In this document: in pieces, positions 1,667-25,596 of the stretch
Position numbering within the stretch: position 1 is the stretch's first letter
Layout: every line of letters starts with the position of its first letter
Source of the DNA: a virus
Direction: 5' to 3' (one strand)
DNA length: 25,596 nucleotides
Virus record (IMG/VR): IMGVR_UViG_3300017743_000106
Span: 1-25,596 of that record
Made by a program: the position numbers and the translations under genes
Notes under the pieces: model-generated
What the model was told of the DNA's origin: nothing
What the model saw: the letters and a program-made list of their open reading frames with translations, nothing else
Databases searched by the model: none

Positions 1667-4600
1667 TTAGGTTCCTTTACCAAATCCTACCGCTTGATAG
1701 TTGAAATTTCTATCTATACTAACATTTGATGAATTTTTAAAGTGTACTGTGAAGCCACTCGTAGAAATATTTGACAAAACGAAATAATCTCCAGAAGCCA
1801 TATTACTTGCTGTTATGCCTACGCTTGGCAAGCTGCTATTGTTGCCACCAAGTACAGAAGTTCCTGTAAAAAATGGAGAATCAAAAGTTACATTTTTTGC
1901 CGCTGCTCCTGATGCTATTTCTGTGTTGCTTTGCTCTGTTCTTCTTTGGAATGAAGCAGTATAACCCAACTGAGTTACTTTAATGTCTTGCGCTGGGTCG
2001 TTTGAATTTAAAACAGCACGAAATTGAAACCCCCTACCTTTAAAAGTACCATTAGCAAATTTTCTAAAATCTGTATAAGTTGGCGAGCCAGAGCCGGGAT
2101 TATCTGAAGTAGTTCGTACAAATAGTTCTGCGTTGACGTCTACGGCTTCTGTACCATCAAAGCTAGTCCAAGTATCAAGGTTTGCTGTCCTCGAATCAAA
2201 AAGATCAGAGGGGTAAAAACCTTCAGTTAAAAAATGTCGTTTTAAATCTAAGCTGAATACTGCGCCTAAGTCTAGAGTGTCTTTAAAATCATAAGTACCA
2301 TTGGAAACAATCCCTCCAAAATCATCTAAAGAACCTACTAGGTCAAAATCAGTTATTTGATCGAAATTACCTCCGCCAACAAGATTTAAGCTGTTTGTGA
2401 CCGCATCAAAAGCTACATTGTTTAACGTACCTTGATATTTTGGATTATCTAAATCTTCCCTGCGAGTTTGGCTAACCAAAACACCTTGAGTATCAGGTAA
2501 ATCAACAATTACTGAAGTCTCTCCAGCGCTGAAACGACCTCCATCATCTTGAAATTTTAATATATATTCTCCTTCAATTATTGGTACAACAGCAGAGGTA
2601 GTATTTCCAGCAAGCCCCGGTATAAGATCAACTGCATTGGTAAAAGTACCGCTACCATTGGTTAAAGTACTATGACGTACATAAACACGCCCACCATGAA
2701 TTACGTCAACATCTGTTGATAAATCCCAGTTAAGGCGAATATTTTTAGAATCGACAGGCTCAAAAGTTAAATTTTGTACATTACCCGGTACAGCAGTTTT
2801 TCCAACAGCATTAAAAGTTGTGTCGGCTGAAGTAGCACTAATTTCTAAAGCAGCATTATAACTGAAAACTTGTATTTCATAAGCACCGGCTTCAGTATTT
2901 AAAATTTCATAGTCAGGTCTTGAAACAGTTTGACTTGTATAGTTTCCATTACTAAAACGATAATTTACTTGATATTGCGTGACGCCAAGAATAGGCTGCC
3001 AGCTTATAATTAATTTTGCTACAGCTTGATTGTTAATTTCAACAATTTTTTCAGAAACTGTTAAAGCGTTGGGGGGTTCTGACGGTTGATTTAAAACAGA
3101 AACCGTACGATCAGGTAAAGATATATTTTCTTCAATAAAACTGTATTTTTCGTTAACGTAAGAAAGTGCGGTAATTGTGTAATTTATTCCATCATTTTCT
3201 TGAACATCTACTACCCTAAATTTTTGGGCTAAAACTGTTGTATCTTGTACAAGCCAAACTGTATTTACGTTTGGTGTCGTTGACAATGCACTTTCTAAAG
3301 TAATAACAGCACCAGAAACACCAGTAATATTTTTTGTTTCAACCGTACCATCAGGCATTATTACGCTCATTGTTGGGCTGTTGGTTGTTGGTAAATCTGT
3401 AGCTGAAGTGTCGTCTACTGTAATTTGTGTTGTAGTTGCGGCGTTTACCCTGCCTGATCTTCTAACGCCCGCCCTAACTGGGTCATTTATTTCTATTACG
3501 CTTCCGGGTCTAACAACAACCCCAGAATCTATTGAAGTATTGAAGTTCACAACTTCACTTTCATTATTTTCGCTAAAAAGTATTGCCCTCCCGAATCTGT
3601 TGGCCTGACCCCGAGAAGTACAAGCAAATGCCCTTACTTGTTTTACAACGGTTCCTATTTTATTTATTAATGAGCTATCTTCAACCACTTCATAATCAAT
3701 GTCCTGTGAATCCATGTTGTAATAAGCCACAGAAACAACGCTATGTCTTGTTTTTAAGCTACTGCCAGAATACTTAAACCCTTCCTCGTCTACATTTGCC
3801 AAGCTAAAAAGGTAACTTGCATCAGTTGGTTTATCTTGAGTTATGGTAATCGTACCAGCCGACCAAATCGGCATACAGCGCATAACCCCGGCCAGTTCAT
3901 TGATAAGATCGAAAGCCTCATTAGAGTTCTGAATATTTACGTTGCATGAAAACCTTGCTTCTTGTCCTGATCTACCATTATTGACCAAAGTATTTGAAAA
4001 TTTTGAAGCCTCTACGAAAGAAAATAAATCTAAATTACCATCAACAATATGATCGCCAAAACCATAACGTGTGTTTGTGATTAGGTCCAATAATATAAGA
4101 GCCGGGCAACTTGTCCATTGTGCAGCACCCATAGTGCCGTTAAAAATATAGTTTGCGGGGTAAACTACTCTTCCAGTAGCAAGATCAACAGTTGGCGTTC
4201 CAGAGCCGCCAGCACCAGCACCCGGAATCCTTACCTTAATTCCTCTCAATCTAAATTTTCGTCTTGGTATTGAACTAAACTGCTGAGAATCTAGTCTCAA
4301 TGAAAGATATGCAGAGTTTGCATAAACTTGTTTGTCGTCTATTATTTCAGCAAAACTTGTCCATTGAAAAGCGTTTATTAAACTTGAACTTGTTGAATCT
4401 GCCGTAACTCGGACAACTCTTATGTCAACAGGAAAACTACCAGTTAAATTAATTCTGTATTCTTTTTGGTAAGCGTCTGCCGTACGTCCTGTGATGGTAT
4501 CTGAAATAATGTCTGAAAATCCACCGCTGTTGTATTGAACTTGTATCTTCAAATCAACCGATGAACCCAGCAAATCGCCTTTGTCTGTTGCTTCTTGTAT

Positions 4601-5062
4601 TTGAGGAAAAGTAATAATTATCTTGGCTGCGTCAACGTCACTATTTGTTAATGATCTTGTTACTGGACTAGCGGCGGTAACACTTACTCCAACCGCTGTT
4701 ATTGATTCACTAGATTCAATACCACTTATCGCTGCTTGATTTGATGTACCAAAACGTGCGTCAAAACCTACATCTTGAAAATTAAAATCAGTTGTAGCTG
4801 GACTAGTTGAATTAGCAGTCGATTTTAATATTGGGGTATCGTTTAAAAATATATCTTTTTTAAAAGCGTTGTTATATGCAGCGGTTCCCTTTGTAAGACC
4901 CTCTTTGGAAGCACTAGCAGAACCCTCTATTTCGCCTTCAGAAACTAGGTCTAGCAAAGTAGCAAACTGCTTGCTGTGTAGCGTGTCTGGAGTTCTTGTT
5001 GGTTGTGGTGGCGTTGGTGGCGGCGGTGGCCCTCCAGCGCCTCTAATAGTTTTTTTTGTCAT
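1667..5062 (-). CDS. Tail tip host-specificity protein (lambda J-like)
   Basis: At 1131 aa this is near the length of lambda J. The N-terminus has a Pro-rich stretch followed by DTLHSKQFATLLDLVSEGE and IEG, then FLNDTPI, the hallmark opening of J-type central tip proteins. The middle (about 350-560) has the conserved hub segment with NEAFDLINELAGVMRCMPIW and ITQDKPTD. Residues about 690-880 look like two fibronectin type III repeats (AKLIISWQPILGVTQYQVNY and NIRLNWDLSTDVDVIHGGRV). The C-terminal 250 residues are beta-rich and probably strain-specific. The family forms the central tip that contacts the receptor and starts DNA ejection. The start ATG overlaps the I stop by 4 nt (ATGA). Family identification is secure; the receptor cannot be read. 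Confidence 0.95.
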   Translation of the reverse strand: MTKKTIRGAGGPPPPPTPPQPTRTPDTLHSKQFATLLDLVSEGEIEGSASASKEGLTKGTAAYNNAFKKDIFLNDTPILKSTANSTSPATTDFNFQDVGFDARFGTSNQAAISGIESSESITAVGVSVTAASPVTRSLTNSDVDAAKIIITFPQIQEATDKGDLLGSSVDLKIQVQYNSGGFSDIISDTITGRTADAYQKEYRINLTGSFPVDIRVVRVTADSTSSSLINAFQWTSFAEIIDDKQVYANSAYLSLRLDSQQFSSIPRRKFRLRGIKVRIPGAGAGGSGTPTVDLATGRVVYPANYIFNGTMGAAQWTSCPALILLDLITNTRYGFGDHIVDGNLDLFSFVEASKFSNTLVNNGRSGQEARFSCNVNIQNSNEAFDLINELAGVMRCMPIWSAGTITITQDKPTDASYLFSLANVDEEGFKYSGSSLKTRHSVVSVAYYNMDSQDIDYEVVEDSSLINKIGTVVKQVRAFACTSRGQANRFGRAILFSENNESEVVNFNTSIDSGVVVRPGSVIEINDPVRAGVRRSGRVNAATTTQITVDDTSATDLPTTNSPTMSVIMPDGTVETKNITGVSGAVITLESALSTTPNVNTVWLVQDTTVLAQKFRVVDVQENDGINYTITALSYVNEKYSFIEENISLPDRTVSVLNQPSEPPNALTVSEKIVEINNQAVAKLIISWQPILGVTQYQVNYRFSNGNYTSQTVSRPDYEILNTEAGAYEIQVFSYNAALEISATSADTTFNAVGKTAVPGNVQNLTFEPVDSKNIRLNWDLSTDVDVIHGGRVYVRHSTLTNGSGTFTNAVDLIPGLAGNTTSAVVPIIEGEYILKFQDDGGRFSAGETSVIVDLPDTQGVLVSQTRREDLDNPKYQGTLNNVAFDAVTNSLNLVGGGNFDQITDFDLVGSLDDFGGIVSNGTYDFKDTLDLGAVFSLDLKRHFLTEGFYPSDLFDSRTANLDTWTSFDGTEAVDVNAELFVRTTSDNPGSGSPTYTDFRKFANGTFKGRGFQFRAVLNSNDPAQDIKVTQLGYTASFQRRTEQSNTEIASGAAAKNVTFDSPFFTGTSVLGGNNSSLPSVGITASNMASGDYFVLSNISTSGFTVHFKNSSNVSIDRNFNYQAVGFGKGT

Positions 5063-5679
5063 GCTGAAACTTGGTGTGTATCAACACCCGCAGAAATTAT
5101 AACTGAACCAGTAAAAATTTCCCCATATACCAATGGCACAGGAGTACCAGCCCTGCTAGTATTTTGCGTTCCACTAAACCCAAAAGAAATTCTAGGGTCA
5201 TTAGGCGATGAAAATTCTGGCATTTTTGGCTTAGGAAATAACATATCTGAAACACCACCAAGAACCATTGCAGCACCAACAGCACTTGTTAAAGTACCAA
5301 TACCGGTTAATATTCCACCCTTAACAGCAGCCGCGCCGCCTAAACCATAAGTACCAAACATACCAGCCCCGGGAAAAAGGAACGAGGCTCCAATTAACGC
5401 CGCACCAGTTAAAATTCTTCCCATGTTTCCACCTGCACCAGTAACAATAGGAACAATATGAACAGTTGATTTTCCAATAGGGTCATTTATTTGTGTCTCG
5501 TCTATTTGGTCTTGATTAATTAAAACTTTATAGGTGTTATCGGCCATGTGTTTTTCAAGCTCTGGAAAGTTAGTTACTAGAAATCTCATTGTTTGGCCTA
5601 CGCTGTTAACGTGCGCTTCTAGTTCTTCGTGACCTAAAAATTCTTTTAAAGGCCCATAAAATTTAATTTTCTTCAACAT
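5059..5679 (-). CDS. Tail assembly protein (lambda I-like)
   Basis: A 206-aa protein with the two-part look of the lambda tail assembly protein I family. Residues 1-80 read like a small beta-grasp domain (LKKIKFYGPLKEFLG, FLVTNFPELEKHMADNTYKV, VHIVPIVTGAGG). Residues about 84-150 are a long Gly/Ala-rich hydrophobic segment that could span or disturb a membrane. The C-terminal tail contains MPEFSSPNDPRISFGFSG and TPVPLVYGE, a motif common in tail-tip proteins. It sits between K and J as in lambda. The start overlaps the end of the K gene by 17 nt. Lambda I acts in tip assembly and is thought to be missing from, or minor in, the mature tail; the same role is inferred. Confidence 0.88.
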   Translation of the reverse strand: MLKKIKFYGPLKEFLGHEELEAHVNSVGQTMRFLVTNFPELEKHMADNTYKVLINQDQIDETQINDPIGKSTVHIVPIVTGAGGNMGRILTGAALIGASFLFPGAGMFGTYGLGGAAAVKGGILTGIGTLTSAVGAAMVLGGVSDMLFPKPKMPEFSSPNDPRISFGFSGTQNTSRAGTPVPLVYGEIFTGSVIISAGVDTHQVSA

Positions 5680-6370
5680 AACGTAGCCTTTTACCAGTAC
5701 ATTTTAGCAGCCATTCTGAATATGGCTCTCTTGAACTCAGCCTATCGGCCAAATGATGTAAAACTTCTCCTCCTAAAAAGATTGCAACATGATTTAATCC
5801 GGGGTGCAATATCGACATAAATAATAGATCTCCTTTTTGTAATTTTTCATCAAATCTGAGTTCTCGAAAACCTGTACGCCAAGCGCAACTTTCAAACATG
5901 GGATTTTCCAAAAATTTTTCTGGTGTAATTGGTCTTTGCCAATCTCTGAGTTCTATATTTTTTTCTTCTTTGTACCAATCCCTCACGAGACTCCAACAAT
6001 CTGTAACGCCCCAACACCAAGGCCGACCAACTAGAGGGGCTTTATATCCACTCGGTTCACAATAACCCCATAACTCAGTTTTTGGATTCACAATATGCCA
6101 TGGAATCCCACTATCTTCACAACTAATCTTATCTGCTTCGCTGGGGGCTGGGGGGGTACTTGGGTGTGAATGCACTATCGCAACGATTTCTCCCGCGTTG
6201 TCGGCCTTTACATAATCAACCGGGTCTAAAATAAAACATTGTTGCTGCGTCATTGATAAATTACCACAGGGAAAATATGTTTTTTTTCCTTTTTTTATAA
6301 TCAACAAACCTACACTTTCTTTTGGGTCTTGCTCTTTTGCGTGTTCTAATGCCGCAACTTTCCAATCCAT
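5663..6370 (-). CDS. Tail tip peptidase (lambda K-like: JAMM plus NlpC/P60)
   Basis: A 235-aa protein with the two-domain layout of lambda K. Residues 1-105 carry an Mpn/JAMM metalloprotease signature: a Glu in ESVGLLI, then IVAIVHSHPS and an Asp in PSEADKIS, giving HxH, Ser and Asp zinc-site residues. Residues about 115-235 form an NlpC/P60 domain: catalytic Cys in WCWGVTDCWSLVRDWY, His in PGLNHVAIFLGG, and the following LHHLADRLSS with the usual third residue. The family is thought to cut peptidoglycan or process tail-tip proteins so DNA can cross the cell wall. The key residues of both domains look intact. The start overlaps the L stop (TAATG), consistent with coupled synthesis of tip proteins. 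Confidence 0.93.
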   Translation of the reverse strand: MDWKVAALEHAKEQDPKESVGLLIIKKGKKTYFPCGNLSMTQQQCFILDPVDYVKADNAGEIVAIVHSHPSTPPAPSEADKISCEDSGIPWHIVNPKTELWGYCEPSGYKAPLVGRPWCWGVTDCWSLVRDWYKEEKNIELRDWQRPITPEKFLENPMFESCAWRTGFRELRFDEKLQKGDLLFMSILHPGLNHVAIFLGGEVLHHLADRLSSREPYSEWLLKCTGKRLRYVEEN

Positions 6371-7362
6371 TATCCAGTAACCAAACCGATTGAAGGAAAC
6401 TCAGCCCGGGTACATTGTCTTTTCGGCGCTCTAACACCAGCCATATCACTTGGTGCAGCCAATTCAAAACTTACAACCTCTCTATTTTCTGCTGCTTTTC
6501 TGTCTATTTGAAATATTTCTCTTGCGTATTCCGCTGTTGGGTCAGGCGTTCCAAGTGGGTTCAACTGTTGTGTCGTTGTTGTTGTTGTCTGTTGTGTTGT
6601 GGTATTTGGATTATTCATTGTGATCGTATTACCCATTCCATTACCATGAACGGTGCAATAATATCTCAAATCGCTTGGTGCTGATGGGTAAGCTGGCTGA
6701 TAAGTTACCGTTGCTCCTGAGTTTCCAGCGGTTCCAGAAACAGTTGTTGTTTGCGCCCCGCCAGCATCAGATTTAATGGCTAAAGGGTGGCCGCTGTTTG
6801 AACTATGTGATTGATCGAAAATGTAAGTAGAACCGCGTTTCATTGTCAATACTGGGTTATTACTGCCGTTGATTGCAAAAATATTGGAGCCACTCACATT
6901 AACCACCGTTACCGTATAAGTAACTGTTTCTGCGTCCGCTGGGTCAGCAATAGTTTCTGTGGTTGTGGTTGTAGTAACTGTAGGTTCAAAGTTGATAGCG
7001 TCCAAAAATTTTGCCTGTGTTCTAATTCTTGTAAAAGTCGCGCCAGTTAAATCATTGCCAACAGTTGTACCATTCACATTCAAAAGTATTGCTGTGATTG
7101 TTCCCAAAGCGTTACTAACTGTAAATGTAGGGCGTGGAATCTGACCGCGTTTGTATGCAAATCCTTCTGCTTCAACTGGAAATCTTAAATACTCATTACC
7201 AGCCCAGACAATTTTTCCATTCGCGTTAAGACTCGAACCGGCGTGAAATCTATAAGTCGTAGCTGAACCATGTAGCGTTGCATCAGTTGTTATTGTAAAA
7301 AGTTCAATCACAGCACTAGGATTGACGTTCTGTAAATCGCTAATAATACCTGCGGTACTCAA
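6370..7362 (-). CDS. Minor tail protein L homologue with inserted cupredoxin-like domain
   Basis: The 330-aa protein aligns by eye with lambda L in two pieces. Residues 1-127 have VNPSAVIELFTI, LRFPVEAEGFAY, GQIPRPTFTVSN and KFLDAINF; residues 268-318 have NPLGTPDPTAEYAREIFQID and RKAAENREVVSFELAAP. Between them is a 140-residue insertion with Thr-rich linkers on both sides. Its core (about 148-250) resembles a plastocyanin-like domain: TVVNVSGSNIFAI, LTMKRGSTYIFDQS, SGHPLAI (His192) and YYCTVHGNGMG (Cys236, His239, Met243), the residue set of a type-1 copper site. The C-terminus ends soon after a single Cys (KRQCTRAEFPSIG), so the four-Cys region of lambda L is absent. The start is TTG, supported by GGAGGT 9 nt upstream and a TTGA overlap with M. 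Copper binding is inferred. Confidence 0.88.
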   Translation of the reverse strand: MSTAGIISDLQNVNPSAVIELFTITTDATLHGSATTYRFHAGSSLNANGKIVWAGNEYLRFPVEAEGFAYKRGQIPRPTFTVSNALGTITAILLNVNGTTVGNDLTGATFTRIRTQAKFLDAINFEPTVTTTTTTETIADPADAETVTYTVTVVNVSGSNIFAINGSNNPVLTMKRGSTYIFDQSHSSNSGHPLAIKSDAGGAQTTTVSGTAGNSGATVTYQPAYPSAPSDLRYYCTVHGNGMGNTITMNNPNTTTQQTTTTTTQQLNPLGTPDPTAEYAREIFQIDRKAAENREVVSFELAAPSDMAGVRAPKRQCTRAEFPSIGLVTG

Positions 7363-7706
7363 GGCTCAAACACCTCCCGAAATGTGGTATTTATTCTAGC
7401 TCTGTTTTTATAAGGAATAGTTTTTGTCCAACTATCACAAACAAATTTTTGACTTGATGACTCGCCCGGTGCTGTGAAATCAAAACTAGCGTTATCGGTT
7501 GCCCTTGCGTCTAAAAAAGTTTCTATTGTGTCTGAATCTGTCTCGCTGACTTCAAAAGTAAGTGTATAAATTTTTGGGTTTTTATGTTGCGCTAGACCAA
7601 ATGTAATTCTATGCTCATATCCGTCAGCAAACTCAATAACTTTTTTTACCGGGGAACTACGTTTTACAACGCCGTATTGCGGATTGATCGAGGGAAAAGT
7701 AGCCAT
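7359..7706 (-). CDS. Minor tail protein M-like tail tip protein
   Basis: A 115-aa protein matching lambda minor tail protein M in length and pattern: FPSINPQYGVVKRSSPVKKV, IEFADGYEHRITFGL near the N-terminus, a central YTLTFEVSETDSDTIETFLD, and a C-terminal segment with FVCDSWTKTIPYKNRA and TTFREVFEP. The family forms a ring of the tail tip that links the end of the tail tube to the L/J hub. The gene lies between the tape measure and L genes as in lambda. It overlaps the tape-measure stop by 1 nt (TAATG) and the L start by 4 nt. Nothing is odd about it. Confidence 0.9.
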   Translation of the reverse strand: MATFPSINPQYGVVKRSSPVKKVIEFADGYEHRITFGLAQHKNPKIYTLTFEVSETDSDTIETFLDARATDNASFDFTAPGESSSQKFVCDSWTKTIPYKNRARINTTFREVFEP

Positions 7707-9688
7707 TATGCTAACAAACCTCCGGGCCTTTGCTGTCTTATTAGTTCTGATTGTATAGCAGAAGCTAGAACTCTGCCAAAGTCTCCCGCCCTTTGGTCGT
7801 CTCCTTGTACGTTTGACCCGCTTGCATCTACATTAACTACGATACTTGCACCACCTCCGATGTTTGGGCTAACCATACCGCTAGAACTTGGTGTAAATAT
7901 CTCCGGGCCTCTTTCTCCCACTAAATAACTAGAACCTCTCAAAGCTGCGCCACCATTAGCGCTACGACCACTTAAACTAAAGAACTCTCCAATACCACCC
8001 CCTAAGCTCCCGAGGAAAGCATTAACACCATATTGAATCAAAGACCTCTGTATCTGCCCAAAGACTGCTGAGGCGACCTCTCCAAGTGTTTTAGTACCAT
8101 TTATTGCACCTTCGATTGCGTTGACCAATCCATTTCTTATTGCCATTGACATATCTGTATAAAGTTGTGTTAATTCTGCGACCTGATCGTACTCCTTACC
8201 GCTTTCGCTTAATATTTGCTCAATTAATGAAAGTCTTTCTTTGGTTGGGTCTACTTGTTTTGTAACTTCTGCTGTTATACCTTCTTCCGCTTTAAGTTCT
8301 TGCATTTTTAATTCAATTCTTGTAATTAAATCCATTGCAAGCCCTTGTATGTTCTCTGCCTGTTCTGTATTTGGGCCGCCGGGTCTAGTCCGTGTAGTTT
8401 GATTTTGTATTCTTTGTACCAACTTGTTCATTCTTTCAAGTTGTTTTACATCGTTTATACCCTCTGGACTAAATCCAGTTAAGGCATTTTCGAATCTATC
8501 TAATGCCCCTGACTCCATTCCAAAGGTCATTTGTGTCCCACCTAGTGCCAGTTGCCTTGCACCTTCTCCCATATTGAGGTCTTGCATAAGTGCAATGGCT
8601 TCTGAAAATTTAGAAACTATTTCTCCAACCGTCCCTAAAATGTCTTTTAACGCCGGGCCAAGCGCTTTGTCCAAAATCCTAACCAAATTACCAATTTGTT
8701 TGACAAGGTTACTGAATTGCTGTGATAACGTGCCTTGAAATTCATTCGTGGCGTCTAAAGCAACACCAGAAGAATTAGCTTGATTAATCAAATTTTCGTT
8801 AAATTTCACAAGATCATCGTTTATTAATGGGAATACAGCCTTCATGGCTTCTACACTTCCAAACAATTTTGCTAATTGTTCAGTTGTTGCTCCACTATTT
8901 GCTATTTGTGCCAATATCCCTTCGAAACCTTTTGACTCTAAAGCCGCTGCATTAAATTCTATGCCTAGTTTTTTGGCAATTTTTTCTGCTTCCCCTGTAG
9001 GTTTTAATATTGATACGATTGCTTGATTTAATCCTGTAAAAGTCTGTTCAACTGGGACACCTTGCGCTGTAATTGTAGCTATAGCAGCGTTTAATTCATC
9101 AATACTTATACCCGCCGCTGAAGCCGTAGGTGCGATTCTACCTATCTGCCTTGCATATTGGTCAACAATTATTTTACCGTCATTTTGTGTTTGTATAAAT
9201 CCATCTACTATCTTTGCAGCCTTGTCTGATTCCAAACCGAAAGCATTCAAAACACTTGTAACAGCATCAGAAACAGTACCAAGCTCGGACATTCCACCAA
9301 CAGCACCTAAAGCTGAAGCCTCAAGTACTTGTGAAGCCTCTGCTGCGTCTGTAAAACCCGCTGAAGCTACGTCATAACTTGCGGCTAATAATTCGGTTTG
9401 TGAATACGCACCTTCTAGACTATTGCTCAAATGTAAAAGATTATTTGAAAGTACATCAACATCAACCCCTAAAGTTTTTACCGCTGTTCTTGCCTGCTCT
9501 GCCTCATTAAACCCTTTGAAATAATTCCGGACACCAGCCGCTACCAGTAAACCACCGGTTAAAAATCCAAACGCCTGACGTAAACCGCCAACCGATTTTG
9601 TTAATTGGTTTGATGCTCCTTGAGCCTGACGTAATCCACGAACTGCCTGTTGTGAATTAACTCTCAGGTCAATATTTGAAATAGCCAC
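7706..9688 (-). CDS. Tape measure protein
   Basis: A 660-aa tape measure of the TP901/lambda H type. The N-terminus is helical (NSQQAVRGLRQAQGASNQL) with a hydrophobic stretch near 40-57 (FGFLTGGLLVAAGV). The conserved core at about 60-290 includes LLAASYDVASAGFTDAAEAS, ASALGAVGG and AAGISIDELNAAIATITAQG, followed by VPVEQTFTGLNQ. The C-terminus has SYLVGERGPEIFTP, common at the ends of tape measures. By the usual relation of about 0.15 nm per residue, the tail would be near 100 nm. The start is GTG, with TAGGA about 8 nt upstream; that TAG is also the stop of the GT chaperone, tying its translation to the frameshift product. The protein is packed inside the tube and probably enters the host envelope at infection. 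Confidence 0.95.
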   Translation of the reverse strand: MAISNIDLRVNSQQAVRGLRQAQGASNQLTKSVGGLRQAFGFLTGGLLVAAGVRNYFKGFNEAEQARTAVKTLGVDVDVLSNNLLHLSNSLEGAYSQTELLAASYDVASAGFTDAAEASQVLEASALGAVGGMSELGTVSDAVTSVLNAFGLESDKAAKIVDGFIQTQNDGKIIVDQYARQIGRIAPTASAAGISIDELNAAIATITAQGVPVEQTFTGLNQAIVSILKPTGEAEKIAKKLGIEFNAAALESKGFEGILAQIANSGATTEQLAKLFGSVEAMKAVFPLINDDLVKFNENLINQANSSGVALDATNEFQGTLSQQFSNLVKQIGNLVRILDKALGPALKDILGTVGEIVSKFSEAIALMQDLNMGEGARQLALGGTQMTFGMESGALDRFENALTGFSPEGINDVKQLERMNKLVQRIQNQTTRTRPGGPNTEQAENIQGLAMDLITRIELKMQELKAEEGITAEVTKQVDPTKERLSLIEQILSESGKEYDQVAELTQLYTDMSMAIRNGLVNAIEGAINGTKTLGEVASAVFGQIQRSLIQYGVNAFLGSLGGGIGEFFSLSGRSANGGAALRGSSYLVGERGPEIFTPSSSGMVSPNIGGGASIVVNVDASGSNVQGDDQRAGDFGRVLASAIQSELIRQQRPGGLLA

Positions 9689-20046: not shown

Positions 20047-21390
20047 TTAATACAATCGAACACCAGTACCACGCCCAGAACGTGCAAAGAGTGGGTTAAA
20101 TTCACGCCATACCAGATAACCTAATGAGTCGTTCAAATGGTCATACCCGGCCTCTTTGTCCGGCTCTCCTTTTTCAGTATATGATTGCAACTCTAAACAT
20201 TCAATCATACGTTTGCAACTGGCATTGATTTGTAAACGTACTTGCCCTTTTCCGTTACATAACAAACCCTGTACGGCAGAGACTCTGTCGCGTATTGGTG
20301 GATTGCTTTTTGCTGAAAGATTTGTGAAACCGTATGTTTCAAGTATCTGTATGTCTGTTTTGCTTGCATTAGTGGAACGATTTCCTCCGCTGGCATCTGG
20401 ATATACATAAATTCTATGTGTAGGGTATCTACGTTTGATTTCTTGGGCAAGTGTATCTGTATCGTGTGCCGATACAATCTCATCAATTATTAACAATTCC
20501 TCATCTAATTTAACTCCTATTACAGCGCTCATATTTCCGATATTAAAATCTACCCCAATTCTTAATGGTTCCCGGGAAACATCAGGCATTGTAGGAATTA
20601 CATTATCAGCCCTAACAAAACGATCATAAACCTGACCTGTTGTGAGATTGGTAAACTCTCCGTTGAGATAGGCTTGCAACATACTCGAATCATAGTTTGC
20701 TTGCATTCGCTCAATGAAATCATTGGGCAAATGTGGATTATCTTGCGTTCTCATTTTTATTAGTTTTCTGTCCTCTCTTTCCTTGGCTTGATCTGACCCG
20801 AAAGTATTCCACATCCACCTAAAACCTTCTGGCGTACTTGCAGCGCAAAATTGTCTCACATTACCAGCCCTTAGCCTTCCAAGTATTTTAGGAAAAGCTC
20901 TATCACAAACACTTGGTGCTACTGTGTCAATTTCATCGGCTAACACAAAGGCCAAATTTAAACCAATTATTCTAGACCAGTTTTCAAAACTTCTGCATAA
21001 TATTTTTGTATCGCCTCCGGGTAGATGCAAAATATATTCTGGTAGTGGACTAGCACGAAATGTATAAGGTATTTCATAATGCTCCAAAAATTGCTCAAAG
21101 TCTGTTTGCCATATATCACGAATTAATGGGCCAGTTGGCTCCATAACAGCCCCAGTAAAACCTACGTTAAGTGCAGCAAGTTTCACACAAGCCGCACAAA
21201 GCGCCCTAGTTTTACCAGCACCATAACCAGCAGAAAGTCCTAAAATTTCTGTTGTATTATCATCAAAAAAAGCCCTTTGTGGCTCGTGTAAATCGTTTCT
21301 AATTCTTTCTAACAAAATATCAATATCAACAGAAATACCAGAACTACCCGGGCGATCTAATACTGAACCCTCCCTAGAAAGTATGCTCAT
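20047..21390 (-). CDS. terL: Terminase large subunit
   Basis: A 447-aa packaging motor. The ATPase half has Walker A LSAGYGAGKTRAL near residue 52 and Walker B NLAFVLADEID near 150, with coupling residues in CAASTPEGFRWMWN. The nuclease half shows acidic residues in LRIGVDFNIGNMSAVIG (about 277), IYVYPDASGGNRST and EAGYDHLNDSLGYLVW, consistent with an RNase H-like headful or cos-cutting nuclease. It drives ATP-dependent DNA entry through the portal and cuts the concatemer. The start overlaps the small subunit stop by 4 nt (ATGA). All main motifs look intact. Confidence 0.95.
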   Translation of the reverse strand: MSILSREGSVLDRPGSSGISVDIDILLERIRNDLHEPQRAFFDDNTTEILGLSAGYGAGKTRALCAACVKLAALNVGFTGAVMEPTGPLIRDIWQTDFEQFLEHYEIPYTFRASPLPEYILHLPGGDTKILCRSFENWSRIIGLNLAFVLADEIDTVAPSVCDRAFPKILGRLRAGNVRQFCAASTPEGFRWMWNTFGSDQAKEREDRKLIKMRTQDNPHLPNDFIERMQANYDSSMLQAYLNGEFTNLTTGQVYDRFVRADNVIPTMPDVSREPLRIGVDFNIGNMSAVIGVKLDEELLIIDEIVSAHDTDTLAQEIKRRYPTHRIYVYPDASGGNRSTNASKTDIQILETYGFTNLSAKSNPPIRDRVSAVQGLLCNGKGQVRLQINASCKRMIECLELQSYTEKGEPDKEAGYDHLNDSLGYLVWREFNPLFARSGRGTGVRLY

Positions 21391-21710
21391 GTTGATACTT
21401 GTGCAATCTTAGCCATTGCATTTATACACCCTAAAGCAACGTGTAATTGTCCATTATTTCTAGCCTCTTTTTGTAGTGTTGAAAGCTGGCTTAACATATC
21501 CGCGGTAAACTGCCTTCTGTCGATGTCAAAATCTTTCTTGAGAACTATACGAGCATCTTGGATATACTGTTCTGTTTGTCTGAGCTTAACCCCCCACTCA
21601 GCCGCGGTATATTTTATAATTTCTGACCGCGTTACACCACGAGCTAATAATCCAGCAATTCTGTAAATTCTATAATCTTTTTCTGACTGAGTCGCTTTCT
21701 TTTTTGCCAC
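21387..21710 (-). CDS. terS: Terminase small subunit-like HTH protein
   Basis: The 107-aa product has a helix-turn-helix-like segment (YRIAGLLARGVTRSEIIKYT, AAEWGVKLRQTEQYIQDARI) and a C-terminal helical part (FTADMLSQLSTLQKEARNNG) that would serve for ring formation. It is directly upstream of terL with an ATGA overlap, the normal place for the DNA-recognition subunit. The start codon is GTG, sharing a base with the TAG stop of the dioxygenase gene (TAGTG). Small terminases vary widely, so the call relies on motif, size and position. Confidence 0.82.
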   Translation of the reverse strand: MAKKKATQSEKDYRIYRIAGLLARGVTRSEIIKYTAAEWGVKLRQTEQYIQDARIVLKKDFDIDRRQFTADMLSQLSTLQKEARNNGQLHVALGCINAMAKIAQVST

Positions 21711-22495
21711 TAGGTTTTTAATTTGTTAAAAGAATCGAGGGCGTACCAAACATGAGAATTACGGTAGCCACCTTGATATGTTGGGATAATGGGCGTAACT
21801 CCGTGACGATTACGCCAAGCCGGGTAAACCAATAATGAATTGTCAGTTTGGTCAAAAGTAGCGTTGTAATCAGGTACATGAAGATTTCCTCCTCTACTGT
21901 TACGCCTTTTTGTAATTATCATATTTATAGCACCTTTTACGTTGGCGTGGTCTTGATGAACCGGTGCGGAAATATTGCAGTTAGAAATAGTTGAAGAAAA
22001 ATTATTAGCAAAACGCCATTTCTCAGGAATCCTGTCACGTATTTTTAAAAGGTGTGCATCAGCTACAGTTGGAATAAATTTTTTAACTAACTCAAAAGAT
22101 TTTATACCTGCTGCATACATTGCCTTAGCAAATATATTGGCACTTTTTACAGAATGAACAGATGATCTAGTAGCGTATGGCCTTCTCATGTGTGGTTTGG
22201 GCGGGCAAGACCCGCAAATTGTTGAATATTGCAATACTTCAGCTTTTTTATTGTGTAATCCGCTCGACCTTTTCATATCGGATTTAGGTACTCTTTTTGT
22301 CTGTATCTCCCGGTCTGCAATGTTAACCAAGTTTTGCAAATCATCAGGCAAAGTTTTTATAAATAAACCTACTGGGGTTCCATCAGGGTCGATCAAAATA
22401 CAATCATCAAAGACGTTAGGCTCAAAACCTCCTACAGAATCGCCAATCTTAAGGGGCGATGTAACAGGTTTCAGGATTAGTTCAGGTAGTTTCAT
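21710..22495 (-). CDS. TET/JBP-like Fe(II)/2-oxoglutarate dioxygenase
   Basis: The product is 261 aa from the ATG at 22495, chosen because it overlaps the previous stop (ATGA); an ATG at 22507 would add four residues. The C-terminal half has the Fe(II)/2OG double-stranded beta-helix residues: HQD in ISAPVHQDHANVKGAINM (H180, D182), the GG strand RGGNLHVPDYNATFDQTDNS, distal His in AWRNRHGVTPI (H231) and Arg in GYRNSHVWYAL (R245). The upstream block CPPKPHMRRPYATRSS resembles the Pro/Arg motif preceding the core in phage TET/JBP proteins. That family oxidises 5-methylpyrimidines in DNA. Neighbours are an FkbM methyltransferase, a ParB-fold protein and the terminase, consistent with genome modification before packaging. 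Fold call is good; substrate is inferred. Confidence 0.72.
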   Translation of the reverse strand: MKLPELILKPVTSPLKIGDSVGGFEPNVFDDCILIDPDGTPVGLFIKTLPDDLQNLVNIADREIQTKRVPKSDMKRSSGLHNKKAEVLQYSTICGSCPPKPHMRRPYATRSSVHSVKSANIFAKAMYAAGIKSFELVKKFIPTVADAHLLKIRDRIPEKWRFANNFSSTISNCNISAPVHQDHANVKGAINMIITKRRNSRGGNLHVPDYNATFDQTDNSLLVYPAWRNRHGVTPIIPTYQGGYRNSHVWYALDSFNKLKT

Positions 22496-23196
22496 AATGC
22501 AAAACAATAAACCATAGAGTTTTTAGGAAACCAAGTAGCACCCCAAAATGTAACGTCCCTTTCAACATAGTGCAGAGACTTATATTCTGCTTCTACCCGG
22601 TAATCTGCTTTTTGTTTGTCGATCACATTCCAAAGTTTTGGTATGTATGGGTCATAATCAAAACTCCATTCATAAACAAGTTTCTTAAAAGTTGCCATAC
22701 TGTGAGTCAGGATAGGGATTTCTGCACCCTCTATGTCCATTTTACAGTTGTCGGCTAGGTTAGCTTGCGTATCAAAATTTATACAAGGTACTTTTATACC
22801 TTTTTTTCTAATGCCTTTGTGCATTATCGAGTTACGCCAAACCCCGCCGTTAGGCCCGATTGTTAAAATTGTAGACTTTCTTTCATCATGGACTAGGGCC
22901 GCTTGTTTTACTTCAACTGCATTTTTAAAACCGTTTAATTTAAGGTTTTTTTGTATCATTTCGCAGTTAAAGGGGTCAGGCTCATAACAAACAGTTGACG
23001 CACCTTTAGAGGCTGCCAATAGTGAAAAAGCACCTACATTGCCGCCACAATCTAACCACGATTCATTGGCTTTGATATTCATGCCTTTTTTCTGGTAACA
23101 ATCTTGCTTAATTACTTCTATGAAAGTTTTGGCATCAGAAAAACCCTCACGGTAAAAAAAATTAATACCGTTTATTTCTCCTTTTGAAAGTTTCAT
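22492..23196 (-). CDS. FkbM-family SAM-dependent methyltransferase
   Basis: A 234-aa Rossmann methyltransferase. Motif I is SWLDCGGNVGAFSLLAASKG (about 47-66), followed by the acidic ribose contact in STVCYEPDPFNCEMIQKNLK and the FkbM-type NCKMDIEGAEIPIL (about 150-163). FkbM enzymes usually methylate hydroxyls, often on sugars. No DNA C5-methyltransferase PC motif or N6-adenine DPPY motif is present, so it is not a standard DNA methylase. It overlaps its neighbours by ATGA on both sides, placing it in the same unit as the dioxygenase. Methylation of an oxidised base or of a surface sugar are both possible; the linkage favours the first, but this is inference. Confidence 0.85.
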   Translation of the reverse strand: MKLSKGEINGINFFYREGFSDAKTFIEVIKQDCYQKKGMNIKANESWLDCGGNVGAFSLLAASKGASTVCYEPDPFNCEMIQKNLKLNGFKNAVEVKQAALVHDERKSTILTIGPNGGVWRNSIMHKGIRKKGIKVPCINFDTQANLADNCKMDIEGAEIPILTHSMATFKKLVYEWSFDYDPYIPKLWNVIDKQKADYRVEAEYKSLHYVERDVTFWGATWFPKNSMVYCFAL

Positions 23197-23813
23197 TTTA
23201 TAAGTTGTTCTAAAACCCTAACTAGCTCTTCGCCTACATAGATTCCTTTTTTCCTTGCGTCTGCAACTATAGTTTTGGCGTGTTCATAATCTTCCGGTCT
23301 AAACTCTATCTGAATTGCTTTGTAGACGTTATTTGCTAATGCGTCAGTTGGGTCCTCGAAATCGTCCAAGGAACCATAGTCAGGTTCATCTGCAAAGGTT
23401 GGTATATCGTCCCCCCAACCGAGAACTGAAAGGTCAAATCCAGAATCAGATAATGTTTCTAATTCTTTTTTCAATAGGTCATCGTCCCAAGATGAATTTA
23501 GAGCTAGTTGGTTATCAGCAATAATGTAGGCTTTGCGTTGCTCTTCTGATAGATGAGACAGCGTAATTGTTGGAACTGAATCCATTCCAATTTTTTTTGC
23601 TGCTGTAATTCTTCCGTGACCCGCAATAACATTACCGGTATCGTCTATAAGAACTGGATTTGTGAAGCCAAACTCTCTCAATGAATTAACTAATCTTTCA
23701 ATCTGAATGTCATTATGTACCCGGGGATTATTTTTGTACAAAGTTAAATCAATAATTCTAGATTGCTTGATATGTTCGGGGGCAACTATTGGATAGCTAG
23801 TTGTTGAGGTCAT
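23193..23813 (-). CDS. ParB/sulfiredoxin-fold protein without methylase domain
   Basis: The 206-aa product starts at ATG 23813 (MTSTTSYPIVAPEHIKQS), which overlaps the stop of a 56-aa ORF by ATGA; an upstream TTG (23888) in the same frame is less likely. The ParB domain spans about 20-130: IDLTLYKNNPRVHNDIQIER, PVLIDDTGNVIAGHGRITAA with the GHGR motif, then RKAYIIADNQLALNSSWDDD. In many phages this domain precedes a DNA methylase in one protein; here the C-terminus is only about 70 residues, acidic then helical, with no methylase motifs. Members may be nucleotide-dependent switches or nucleases. Its place before the FkbM and dioxygenase genes suggests DNA targeting. Confidence 0.85.
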   Translation of the reverse strand: MTSTTSYPIVAPEHIKQSRIIDLTLYKNNPRVHNDIQIERLVNSLREFGFTNPVLIDDTGNVIAGHGRITAAKKIGMDSVPTITLSHLSEEQRKAYIIADNQLALNSSWDDDLLKKELETLSDSGFDLSVLGWGDDIPTFADEPDYGSLDDFEDPTDALANNVYKAIQIEFRPEDYEHAKTIVADARKKGIYVGEELVRVLEQLIK

Positions 23814-23980
23814 AAGTCGAGGTGTAACTGATTCGAGTTTAGCTTTTTTTTGTGCGTGTAAAACTCTTGAGGTCTTGGCTGTAACCAAACACGCATACCA
23901 TCAACAATTCTGTAATTACATTTTTGTAATGGGTCATATACGAGATAGTCTTTAGATAGTCGGTAAGATAGTCCTTGCAT
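23810..23980 (-). CDS. Small hypothetical protein, 56 aa
   Basis: This ORF reads MQGLSYRLSKDYLVYDPLQK, then CNYRIVDGMRVWLQPRPQEF, and ends in HLDL. Its stop overlaps the ATG of the ParB-like gene (ATGA), and it begins inside the last 29 nt of the Cys-rich gene. It fills what would otherwise be a gap and fixes the ParB start. It is basic and has several aromatics but no known motif; I recognise no family. Its place in the operon ties it to the ParB/FkbM/dioxygenase group. There is no strong Shine-Dalgarno, so translation probably depends on reinitiation. Confidence 0.6.
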   Translation of the reverse strand: MQGLSYRLSKDYLVYDPLQKCNYRIVDGMRVWLQPRPQEFYTHKKKLNSNQLHLDL

Positions 23981-25204: not shown

Positions 25205-25596
25205 ATGAAATATGTAATTACTGTTGAAGGAATTGACGCTGCTCCACAAGGAAGTAAATCATATATCGGCAAAAATAAACTGGGCAGAGGTATGATGATT
25301 GAATCGTGTAAGAGGGTAAAGCCATTTAGGAATGCAGTTAGGGGTGAAGCAAAAAAAGTAGTTAGTAAAATAATTAAAGAACCAGTACACATAGAAGTAG
25401 AGTTTTGGTTCAAGAGGCCTAAATCTCATTTCGATTCAAAGGGCAAAGTATTACCATCGGAACCTAAATATCCAACGAAAATGAATATAGGAGATATTGA
25501 CAAATTATGTCGCAGCACTTTAGATGCTTTAACATTATCTGCGATTGCTGACGATTCGCAAGTGGTAAGTTTGCAAGCCCGAAAATATTACTGTGA
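25205..25596 (+). CDS. rusA: RusA-like Holliday junction resolvase (cut by window edge)
   Basis: The first 130 codons are visible on the plus strand. The N-terminus has VITVEGIDAAPQGSKSYIG and MMIESCKRVKPFRNAV, a known RusA opening (GxPxPQGSKxxxG, ...VExSKRVKPWR). The catalytic region has VHIEVEFWFKRPKSHF, then IGDIDKLCRSTLDALTLSAI and ADDSQVVSLQARKYY, with Asp97, Asp99, Asp107 and Asp116/117 matching the DxD...LDAL...DDSQV metal-binding set. RusA cleaves four-way junctions, resolving phage replication or recombination products ahead of packaging. It is the only plus-strand gene. The ATG is fixed because the frame is closed by TAA 13 nt upstream; no Shine-Dalgarno is at a normal distance (AAGGAG is 27 nt upstream). 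The C-terminal end is outside the window. Confidence 0.93.
   Translation, partial: MKYVITVEGIDAAPQGSKSYIGKNKLGRGMMIESCKRVKPFRNAVRGEAKKVVSKIIKEPVHIEVEFWFKRPKSHFDSKGKVLPSEPKYPTKMNIGDIDKLCRSTLDALTLSAIADDSQVVSLQARKYYC

Follow-up and report, generated by a model that had tools for sequence, protein, structure and literature searches.

Does an FkbM methyltransferase cap a TET-oxidised base in marine phage DNA? A candidate hypermodification cassette beside the terminase genes

What does a methyltransferase of the FkbM type do between a ParB-like protein and a TET/JBP-like dioxygenase, just ahead of the terminase genes of a phage? The question is raised by the viral record IMGVR_UViG_3300017743_000106 of IMG/VR, whose positions 1 to 25,596 we analysed as one stretch of 25,596 nucleotides (nt), called the window below. 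Three genes of its minus strand are concerned, which encode a ParB_N-domain protein (23193..23813), an FkbM-type S-adenosylmethionine (SAM) methyltransferase (22492..23196) and a TET/JBP-family 2-oxoglutarate (2OG)-Fe(II) dioxygenase (21710..22495), called TET for short. A sequence-only reading of this stretch had proposed them as a candidate DNA hypermodification module. The fold of the dioxygenase and the genes which stand in the place of FkbM in sister phages support this proposal; the chemistry is what we infer from there. With a probability of about one half, we read the cassette as a post-replicative hypermodification system in which TET and FkbM would together produce a methyl-ether cap. 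Its direct supports are the fold and catalytic residues of TET, the family of the methyltransferase, a fixed gene order, purifying selection and the fact that the gene between ParB and TET (the "slot" gene) has been exchanged or lost several times.

The dioxygenase (261 amino acids, aa) starts at an ATG at 22495, its open reading frame (ORF) reaching back to a TTG at 22507. Enzymes of the TET/JBP family are characterised by an HxD...H iron triad and a 2OG-binding arginine carried on a double-stranded beta-helix. The motif residues of the window protein are H184-x-D186, the strand GGNLHVPDY (206-214), H235 and R249, and H184, D186, H235 and R249 are invariant in alignments of 21 and of 26 sequences. 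An AlphaFold2 model computed from the 26 sequences has a mean pLDDT of 90.6. When it was compared to the PDB with Foldseek, rows 1-26 were all TET2, CcTet, NgTET1 or CMD1 (best E 1.6e-11). VIA-align, which re-examines Foldseek's own list, scored TET2 at Z 18.9 over 249 residues (3.8 A) and NgTET1 at 18.8 over 215 residues (2.9 A); its top 16 rows were TET2, NgTET1, CcTet and CMD1 (Z 16.2-18.9), the next being FTO at 14.2. The nearest solved structures are thus TET-family DNA dioxygenases and not other 2OG families. The profile evidence is weaker: Tet_JBP (PF12851) matches the protein with E=1.1e-4 and 21.9 bits for a cut-off of 34.9, and a profile search at E 10 returned six sequences, namely CMD1 (0.021), an Rai1-interacting protein (0.023), three constructs of TET2 (0.046-0.047) and MinD (0.71). 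We concluded that the dioxygenase is a TET/JBP-family enzyme, as the sequence-only reading had called it, with a predicted activity of DNA oxidation. The name "queuine tRNA-ribosyltransferase", which it bears in PHROG 6059 and RefSeq, was rejected, since the fold matches TET enzymes; relatives in some Rhodococcus and Gordonia phages are labelled Tet-like J-binding proteins. A phmmer search of the PDB with a single TET brought up TAL effectors (best E 6e-6, with no stretch passing alone) and others, all discarded as spurious. Among genome contigs, 22 pattern matches to TET yielded no confirmed relative, this single-protein query being uninformative on prophages and cellular homologues.

The second enzyme (234 aa) matches PF05050 with 41.7 bits (cut-off 22.7), and the ParB protein (206 aa from the ATG at 23813, ORF to a TTG at 23888) matches PF02195 with 28.5 bits (cut-off 26.3), so that both earlier domain calls hold above the Pfam cut-offs. 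In 17 FkbM sequences D49 and G51-F57 (D49-x-GGNVGAF), E72-D74 (EPD) and K152-E159 are invariant, and the model of the protein (pLDDT 82.7) has the class I methyltransferase fold. FkbM enzymes O-methylate hydroxyls and are known from the O-methylation of natural products. FK506 and FK520 are named in connection with FkbM in the excerpt of PMC5537653. As for the ParB protein, which belongs to PHROG 620 and to the N-terminal part of PHROG 498 ("DNA methyltransferase"), a Pfam scan at E 1 found no helix-turn-helix family, that is, no centromere-binding part; given this missing part, the gene product is a ParB_N-domain protein only.

Is the arrangement of these genes more than a chance neighbourhood? 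The 5.6 kb at the 3' end of the window are 75.7-75.9% identical in nucleotides, at 98% coverage, to the Prochlorococcus siphophages MED4-184, P-HS2 and MED4-117. The records of MED4-184 and MED4-117 have in common the order ParB, FkbM, dioxygenase, small gene, terminase (with the labels "DNA methylase", "hypothetical" and "queuine tRNA-ribosyltransferase" for the first three), and many IMG/VR loci have the same order. Between the window and its relative L010 (L numbers are our handles for loci) the ratio of nonsynonymous to synonymous substitution rates (dN/dS, NG86) is 0.048 for ParB, 0.108 for FkbM and 0.076 for TET; for FkbM it is 0.043 and 0.131 in two additional pairs, two others being saturated. 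Purifying selection on the three genes is therefore strong. Since the order is kept in both isolates and in many IMG/VR loci and dN/dS is low, we concluded that the module is not due to chance.

We then surveyed what stands between ParB and TET. Relatives of TET were taken from IMG/VR as the best 80 of 164, 191 and 334 confirmed matches, so that the loci represent the nearest part of the family. The 243 loci with a TET were reduced to 126 by removing contained ones, and to 115 by removing 11 with an identical TET region; these are 109 non-redundant loci (107 IMG/VR stretches, MED4-184 and MED4-117) and six actinophages, hand-picked among 84 matched records not of the MED4 type. The window itself coincides with the identical L004. 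Slot genes were classed by profiles built in this analysis, and eight rows classed "other" were re-read by eye, whereby L072 became FkbM, L078, L163 and L187 TET-associated glycosyltransferase (TAGT), and L173 kinase, while three actinophage rows stayed "other"; three are "none". FkbM fills the slot in 69 of the 109 loci and TAGT in 31; a P-loop kinase is present once, and in five loci ParB directly abuts TET with nothing in between. The remaining three are cut off at a contig end. These counts are not independent events, because near-identical contigs remain in the set. TAGT corresponds to PF20691, over its cut-off in all five slot genes first scanned; a PF20691 search of 19 records without any match also missed the known TAGT of L081, and we made no use of it. 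The match of the kinase (164 aa, L173) to PF18751 (E 0.0033) stays under the cut-off. The sequence-only reading had found FkbM an unusual partner; it is, on the contrary, what the slot holds most often in the loci examined. Searching IMG/VR with FkbM alone led to 44 loci, all with TET, which are close relatives (at least 53% identity over full-length matches; in L124 only the edge of FkbM is present). The neighbourhood survey thus reveals a recurrent ParB-FkbM-TET association under purifying selection.

The slot gene has changed repeatedly. On a maximum likelihood tree of 49 of 102 TETs (those more than 97% identical with the same label being collapsed; L120 and L242 have long branches), the label FkbM requires at least seven changes, and the well-supported ("starred") branches alone force seven, several of them being between FkbM and "none" and not between FkbM and TAGT. 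One starred clade contains L078 with TAGT, L237 with FkbM and L239 with nothing in the slot. The exchange can be seen directly by comparing L046 (FkbM) and L071 (TAGT): nucleotide identity is 95.5% in ParB, 91.4% in TET and 92.4% over the 1.3 kb that follow, which cover terS and the beginning of terL, while the slot, with 48% in a forced alignment, holds unrelated genes, the breakpoints lying some tens of bases from the gene borders. In the available stretches of the 69 FkbM loci the TAGT profile found no match beside FkbM, and at E 10 our own profiles detected TAGT neither in the window nor in MED4-184 or MED4-117. FkbM overlaps TET mostly by 4 to 16 nt. By this exchange, FkbM stands in for enzymes that are presumed to cap 5-hydroxymethyl bases, and this context speaks strongly for a part in base hypermodification.

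The spacing is not the same everywhere. In L018 FkbM and TET are separated by about 200 nt (4592-4798) containing short tandem repeats (units CTTTTACAC and AATGATAGTA), and gaps of 164-266 nt are also found in L023, L035, L042, L102, L103, L106, L114, L115 and L116. In L043 an 84-aa ORF to which no family was assigned (9071-9325) is inserted between ParB and FkbM.

FkbM recurs with a second lineage of TET. The next nearest phage FkbM, 29% identical to the window type, is that of Pelagibacter phage HTVC112P, whose gp17-19 are ParB_N (40.5 bits), a TET (PF12851, 103.2 bits, over cut-off; labelled DnaJ/SNF2) and FkbM, in this order. A search with the window TET at E 0.01 gave 89 records, with no Pelagibacter record among them, and a profile comparison of the two TETs aligned 84 columns (probability 13.6%, E 0.002). 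We treat the HTVC112P TET as a separate lineage because that search missed it and only 84 columns could be aligned. The two kinds of FkbM are nevertheless each other's nearest: among 50,697 phage records the best non-self matches of the HTVC112P FkbM are those of the MED4 phages (7e-17, the next being 1e-7), and in reverse the best match of the MED4-phage FkbM outside its own group is HTVC112P (3e-19, then 3e-7). FkbM directly follows TET in 25 of 36 HTVC112P-type IMG/VR loci, which were not de-duplicated; L342 ends just after TET. Four of the 11 loci without FkbM (L358, L362, L363, L368) were read gene by gene. In the place after TET, L358 and L363 have TAGT, accompanied or not by a sugar-nucleotide enzyme, and L362 has ADDT and a P-loop kinase. 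In both TET lineages FkbM occupies a place where other members have enzymes that build, or are predicted to build, on a 5-hydroxymethyl-pyrimidine.

Two of these loci deserve a word of their own. After ParB-TET, L362 encodes a 712-aa protein with matches to ADDT and aGPT-PPlase3 (4890-7028), then a P-loop ATPase/kinase (7025-7552); these genes may form an operon for amino acid:DNA hypermodification in uncultured phages. Between TET and TAGT, L358 encodes a fused protein, cytidylyltransferase-like and of mannose-6-phosphate isomerase type (1587-2366), possibly a dedicated sugar-nucleotide supplier.

What reaction could FkbM catalyse in such a place? In the scheme which follows, substrate, product, order of action, the role of ParB and the protective function are all conditional. 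The ParB_N protein would bind or target DNA. TET would oxidise the 5-methyl group of a pyrimidine within DNA, probably thymine, else 5-methylcytosine (5mC), to 5-hydroxymethyl. If FkbM replaces the TAGT or kinase that would use the hydroxyl made by TET, the plain reading is a methyl ether, FkbM moving the methyl of SAM onto the 5-hydroxymethyl group to give 5-methoxymethyl-uracil (or -cytosine). At the same step relatives would add a sugar (TAGT), use kinase and amino-acid-transferase genes, or leave the 5-hydroxymethyl bare; that TAGT places the first sugar on the product of TET is likewise suggested by gene context. The small neutral ether would shield the DNA against restriction enzymes and against nucleases which recognise hydroxymethylated or glycosylated bases. 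Across loci ParB, the capping gene, TET and the gene preceding terL mostly overlap by a few bases; these overlaps up to terL suggest that the cassette is expressed together with the packaging genes, and that finished DNA is modified before or during packaging. A little less firmly than the methyl-ether reading itself, we put forward tentatively that the base would be a new one, made by an FkbM acting as DNA hydroxyl O-methyltransferase, and that the cap (methyl, sugar, phosphate or aminoacyl) would be exchangeable on a ParB-TET-terminase chassis.

Which base is concerned depends on the source of the methyl group. Phage TET systems described in the excerpt of PMC12730594 act on 5mC made by a C5-methyltransferase, and systems of TET, C5-methyltransferase and glycosyltransferase on cytosine are reported there. 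We found a C5-methyltransferase (PF00145) in two phage records of a related set of 30, which includes many fragments, and in neither MED4-184 nor MED4-117; in none of 10 records of a set including HTVC112P; and among Prochlorococcus genomes in 10 of the 50 searched, a set covering 50 of 57 loci, with many single-cell assemblies and without MED4. The sequence-only reading had noted that no C5-methyltransferase is visible in the window, which is correct; the window ends at an incomplete RusA-like resolvase gene (25205..25594, plus strand, matching the RusA-like gene of MED4-184), and L011 has a 301-aa C5-methyltransferase about 0.7 kb past RusA, while L010 has none in the 3 kb past it. It had also supposed that the methyl source must come from elsewhere; thymine would need none. 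Because C5-methyltransferases are rare in the relatives and the actinophage relatives pair ParB-TET with ADDT or kinase, we lean, with some reserve, towards thymine rather than 5mC as the substrate. Both C5-methyltransferase carriers are near relatives of the window, which counts against us, and because of them cytosine keeps a share of the probability: that a C5-methyltransferase makes 5mC, TET oxidises it to 5-hydroxymethylcytosine and FkbM caps it seems rather unlikely, given the 28 related records and 40 Prochlorococcus genomes in which no such enzyme was found within the scopes just given, its odds overlapping with those of the favoured reading. In L011 the C5-methyltransferase gene (5231-6136, PF00145, 143.9 bits) is overlapped on the same strand and in another frame by a 227-aa ORF (5391-6074), for which Pfam gave nothing at E 0.01 and which may be an overlapping gene or a recombination remnant.

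Several other observations weigh against a methyl cap set directly on the base. The window TET scores beneath the Pfam cut-off, and structure searches with FkbM return class I methyltransferases generally, without a pointer to the substrate. Distant phage FkbMs (Wakanda, phiM19) have no annotated TET nearby, and in P12024L, Cr30, DLP_6 and S-CBWM1 the relatives of the HTVC112P TET lack an annotated FkbM in their neighbourhood. A GT9-like gene lies beside the tail fibre of HTVC112P, and each of three Prochlorococcus genomes has 5-8 matches to the glycosyltransferase family PF00535, so that host glycosyltransferases exist. TAGT is a recognised family of glucosyltransferases for DNA bases; that of T6 adds a second glucose onto an already glucosylated base and not the first group onto the hydroxyl (PMC13216743, in the portion cited). 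Finally, after TET, L357 has both FkbM and TAGT and L368 another methyltransferase and TAGT, which fits sugar methylation in these loci. Outside its slot, which is occupied by TAGT, L073 carries a second FkbM. On the FkbM tree, which has long branches and 3 of 20 forks starred, the FkbM of L357 pairs with this second FkbM of L073 (100/100), and the pair is placed beside the HTVC112P-type FkbMs (91/86, unstarred, long branches). Because of this position a shared clade of "direct-capping" FkbMs is not supported by the tree, and a simple division between direct-capping and sugar-methylating clades is disfavoured; by score, the HTVC112P FkbM is nearer to the window FkbM (85 bits versus 50 and 36). 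The FkbMs of L357 and L073 are perhaps a second kind, methylating sugars.

Might FkbM, then, also in the window methylate a sugar or another group which a different phage or host enzyme has linked to the 5-hydroxymethyl base? The natural-product record of the family, the loci just named and the host glycosyltransferases would all suit this explanation, but the window-type FkbM replaces TAGT, with no accompanying TAGT match in the stretches of 69 loci, and the FkbMs which co-occur with TAGT pair apart from that of the window. Moreover, in MED4-184, where 30 of 59 proteins (mostly non-structural) were scanned at E 1e-4, we found no glycosyltransferase, methyltransferase or thymidylate synthase, our own profiles found no TAGT in it, and PF00535 was not found in any of the 11 phage records searched. 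We regard it as unlikely. It is less likely still that TET modifies DNA while FkbM merely shares its operon and acts on a host glycan, the virion or a small molecule. FkbM genes do occur in other phages and ParB-TET is kept without a slot gene in 5 of 109 loci, against which stand the exchange with TAGT and kinase, the overlap with TET of, in most cases, 4 to 16 nt, the changes on the tree and the recurrence in a second TET lineage. That the dioxygenase acts on something other than DNA, for instance as a tRNA or protein hydroxylase, as its database names would have it, is very improbable in view of its TET fold and motif and of its partner families TAGT and ADDT, which are DNA-base enzymes.

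It remains to describe the surroundings of the cassette, all on the minus strand. Upstream lies a 56-aa ORF (23810..23980), without a family over cut-off in Pfam or PHROG. With ATG starts it overlaps ParB by 4 nt, as ParB does FkbM and FkbM the dioxygenase (16 nt with the TTG start of the latter), and it overlaps the upstream 157-aa ORF by 29 nt. Downstream, the dioxygenase overlaps by 1 nt a probable terminase small subunit gene, terS (21387..21710), which falls in PHROG 34910 (unknown function) and is co-conserved between TET and terL in relatives; terS in turn overlaps by 4 nt the terminase large subunit gene, terL (20047..21390; PF17289 over cut-off, PHROG 2). An ORF check thus recovers the four overlapping minus-strand genes and the 1-nt overlap with terS that had been described. 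The 56-aa ORF had been counted as a member of the module; we place it outside the wider module, because its matches stay within closer relatives.

If our reading is true, it adds a new chemistry of phage DNA modification, the SAM-dependent ether capping of a hydroxymethyl base, and defines a group of FkbM enzymes acting on DNA; phages would exchange the capping enzyme as a cassette, which is what one would expect if the nucleases of their hosts adapt to one cap after another. Prochlorococcus and Pelagibacter are among the most abundant marine cells. The phages concerned infect them, and isolates exist (P-HS2, MED4-184, MED4-117 and HTVC112P). In any case two misleading database labels are corrected, "queuine tRNA-ribosyltransferase" and "DnaJ/SNF2" being here TET enzymes. 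TET with glycosyltransferases and TET with ADDT or kinase are already known. Our literature search found no paper on FkbM as a partner of TET and no description of a methoxymethyl base in phage DNA; the founding TET papers (Burke 2021, Iyer 2013) lie outside this search and could mention FkbM as a neighbour of TET.

How does the cassette compare with known systems? Cytosine hypermodification by a phage TET and a glycosyltransferase, with or without a C5-methyltransferase (Burke et al. 2021, as cited in PMC12730594), shares with it the TET dioxygenase, and TAGT occupies the same place in 31 of 109 sister loci; the window differs in having FkbM for TAGT, and a C5-methyltransferase accompanies only 2 of 30 related records. 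In Arthrobacter phage Prairie (L090, 5825-7155), TET precedes a gene resembling TAGT, which with 24.4 bits narrowly misses the cut-off, and a PIG-L deacetylase; this arrangement suggests that an N-acetylhexosamine is added to the base and then deacetylated. The actinophages CaiB (PMC9302106) and Tonitrus (PMC11955845) have, like the window, ParB then TET with short overlaps before the terminase, but with ADDT or a P-loop kinase for FkbM and a longer C-terminus of TET, which is about 27% identical to that of the window; in the excerpts cited, their authors consider a possible thymidine hypermodification or nucleotide modification. No 5-hydroxymethyluracil DNA kinase, ADDT or PPlase was found in eight window proteins or in the 30 scanned proteins of MED4-184, and ADDT or kinase partners are seen in the relatives L087 and L362. 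In L086 (3234-3764) and L087 (2512-3057) the Ploopntkinase3 proteins match PHROG 800, "terminase small subunit", through a kinase-terS fusion or a transfer of annotation, hinting at a coupling of modification and packaging. The Mycobacterium phages of Bclasvirinae (KayaCho, NC_022061), among which gp2 of Cooper is named TET/JBP (PMC12730594), have the same order ParB-TET-terS-terL, but without a gene between ParB and TET. The closest parallel for FkbM is HTVC112P, which has ParB_N, TET and FkbM, the FkbMs being each other's best phage match beyond their own groups; it differs by the order ParB-TET-FkbM and by a TET barely similar to that of the window.

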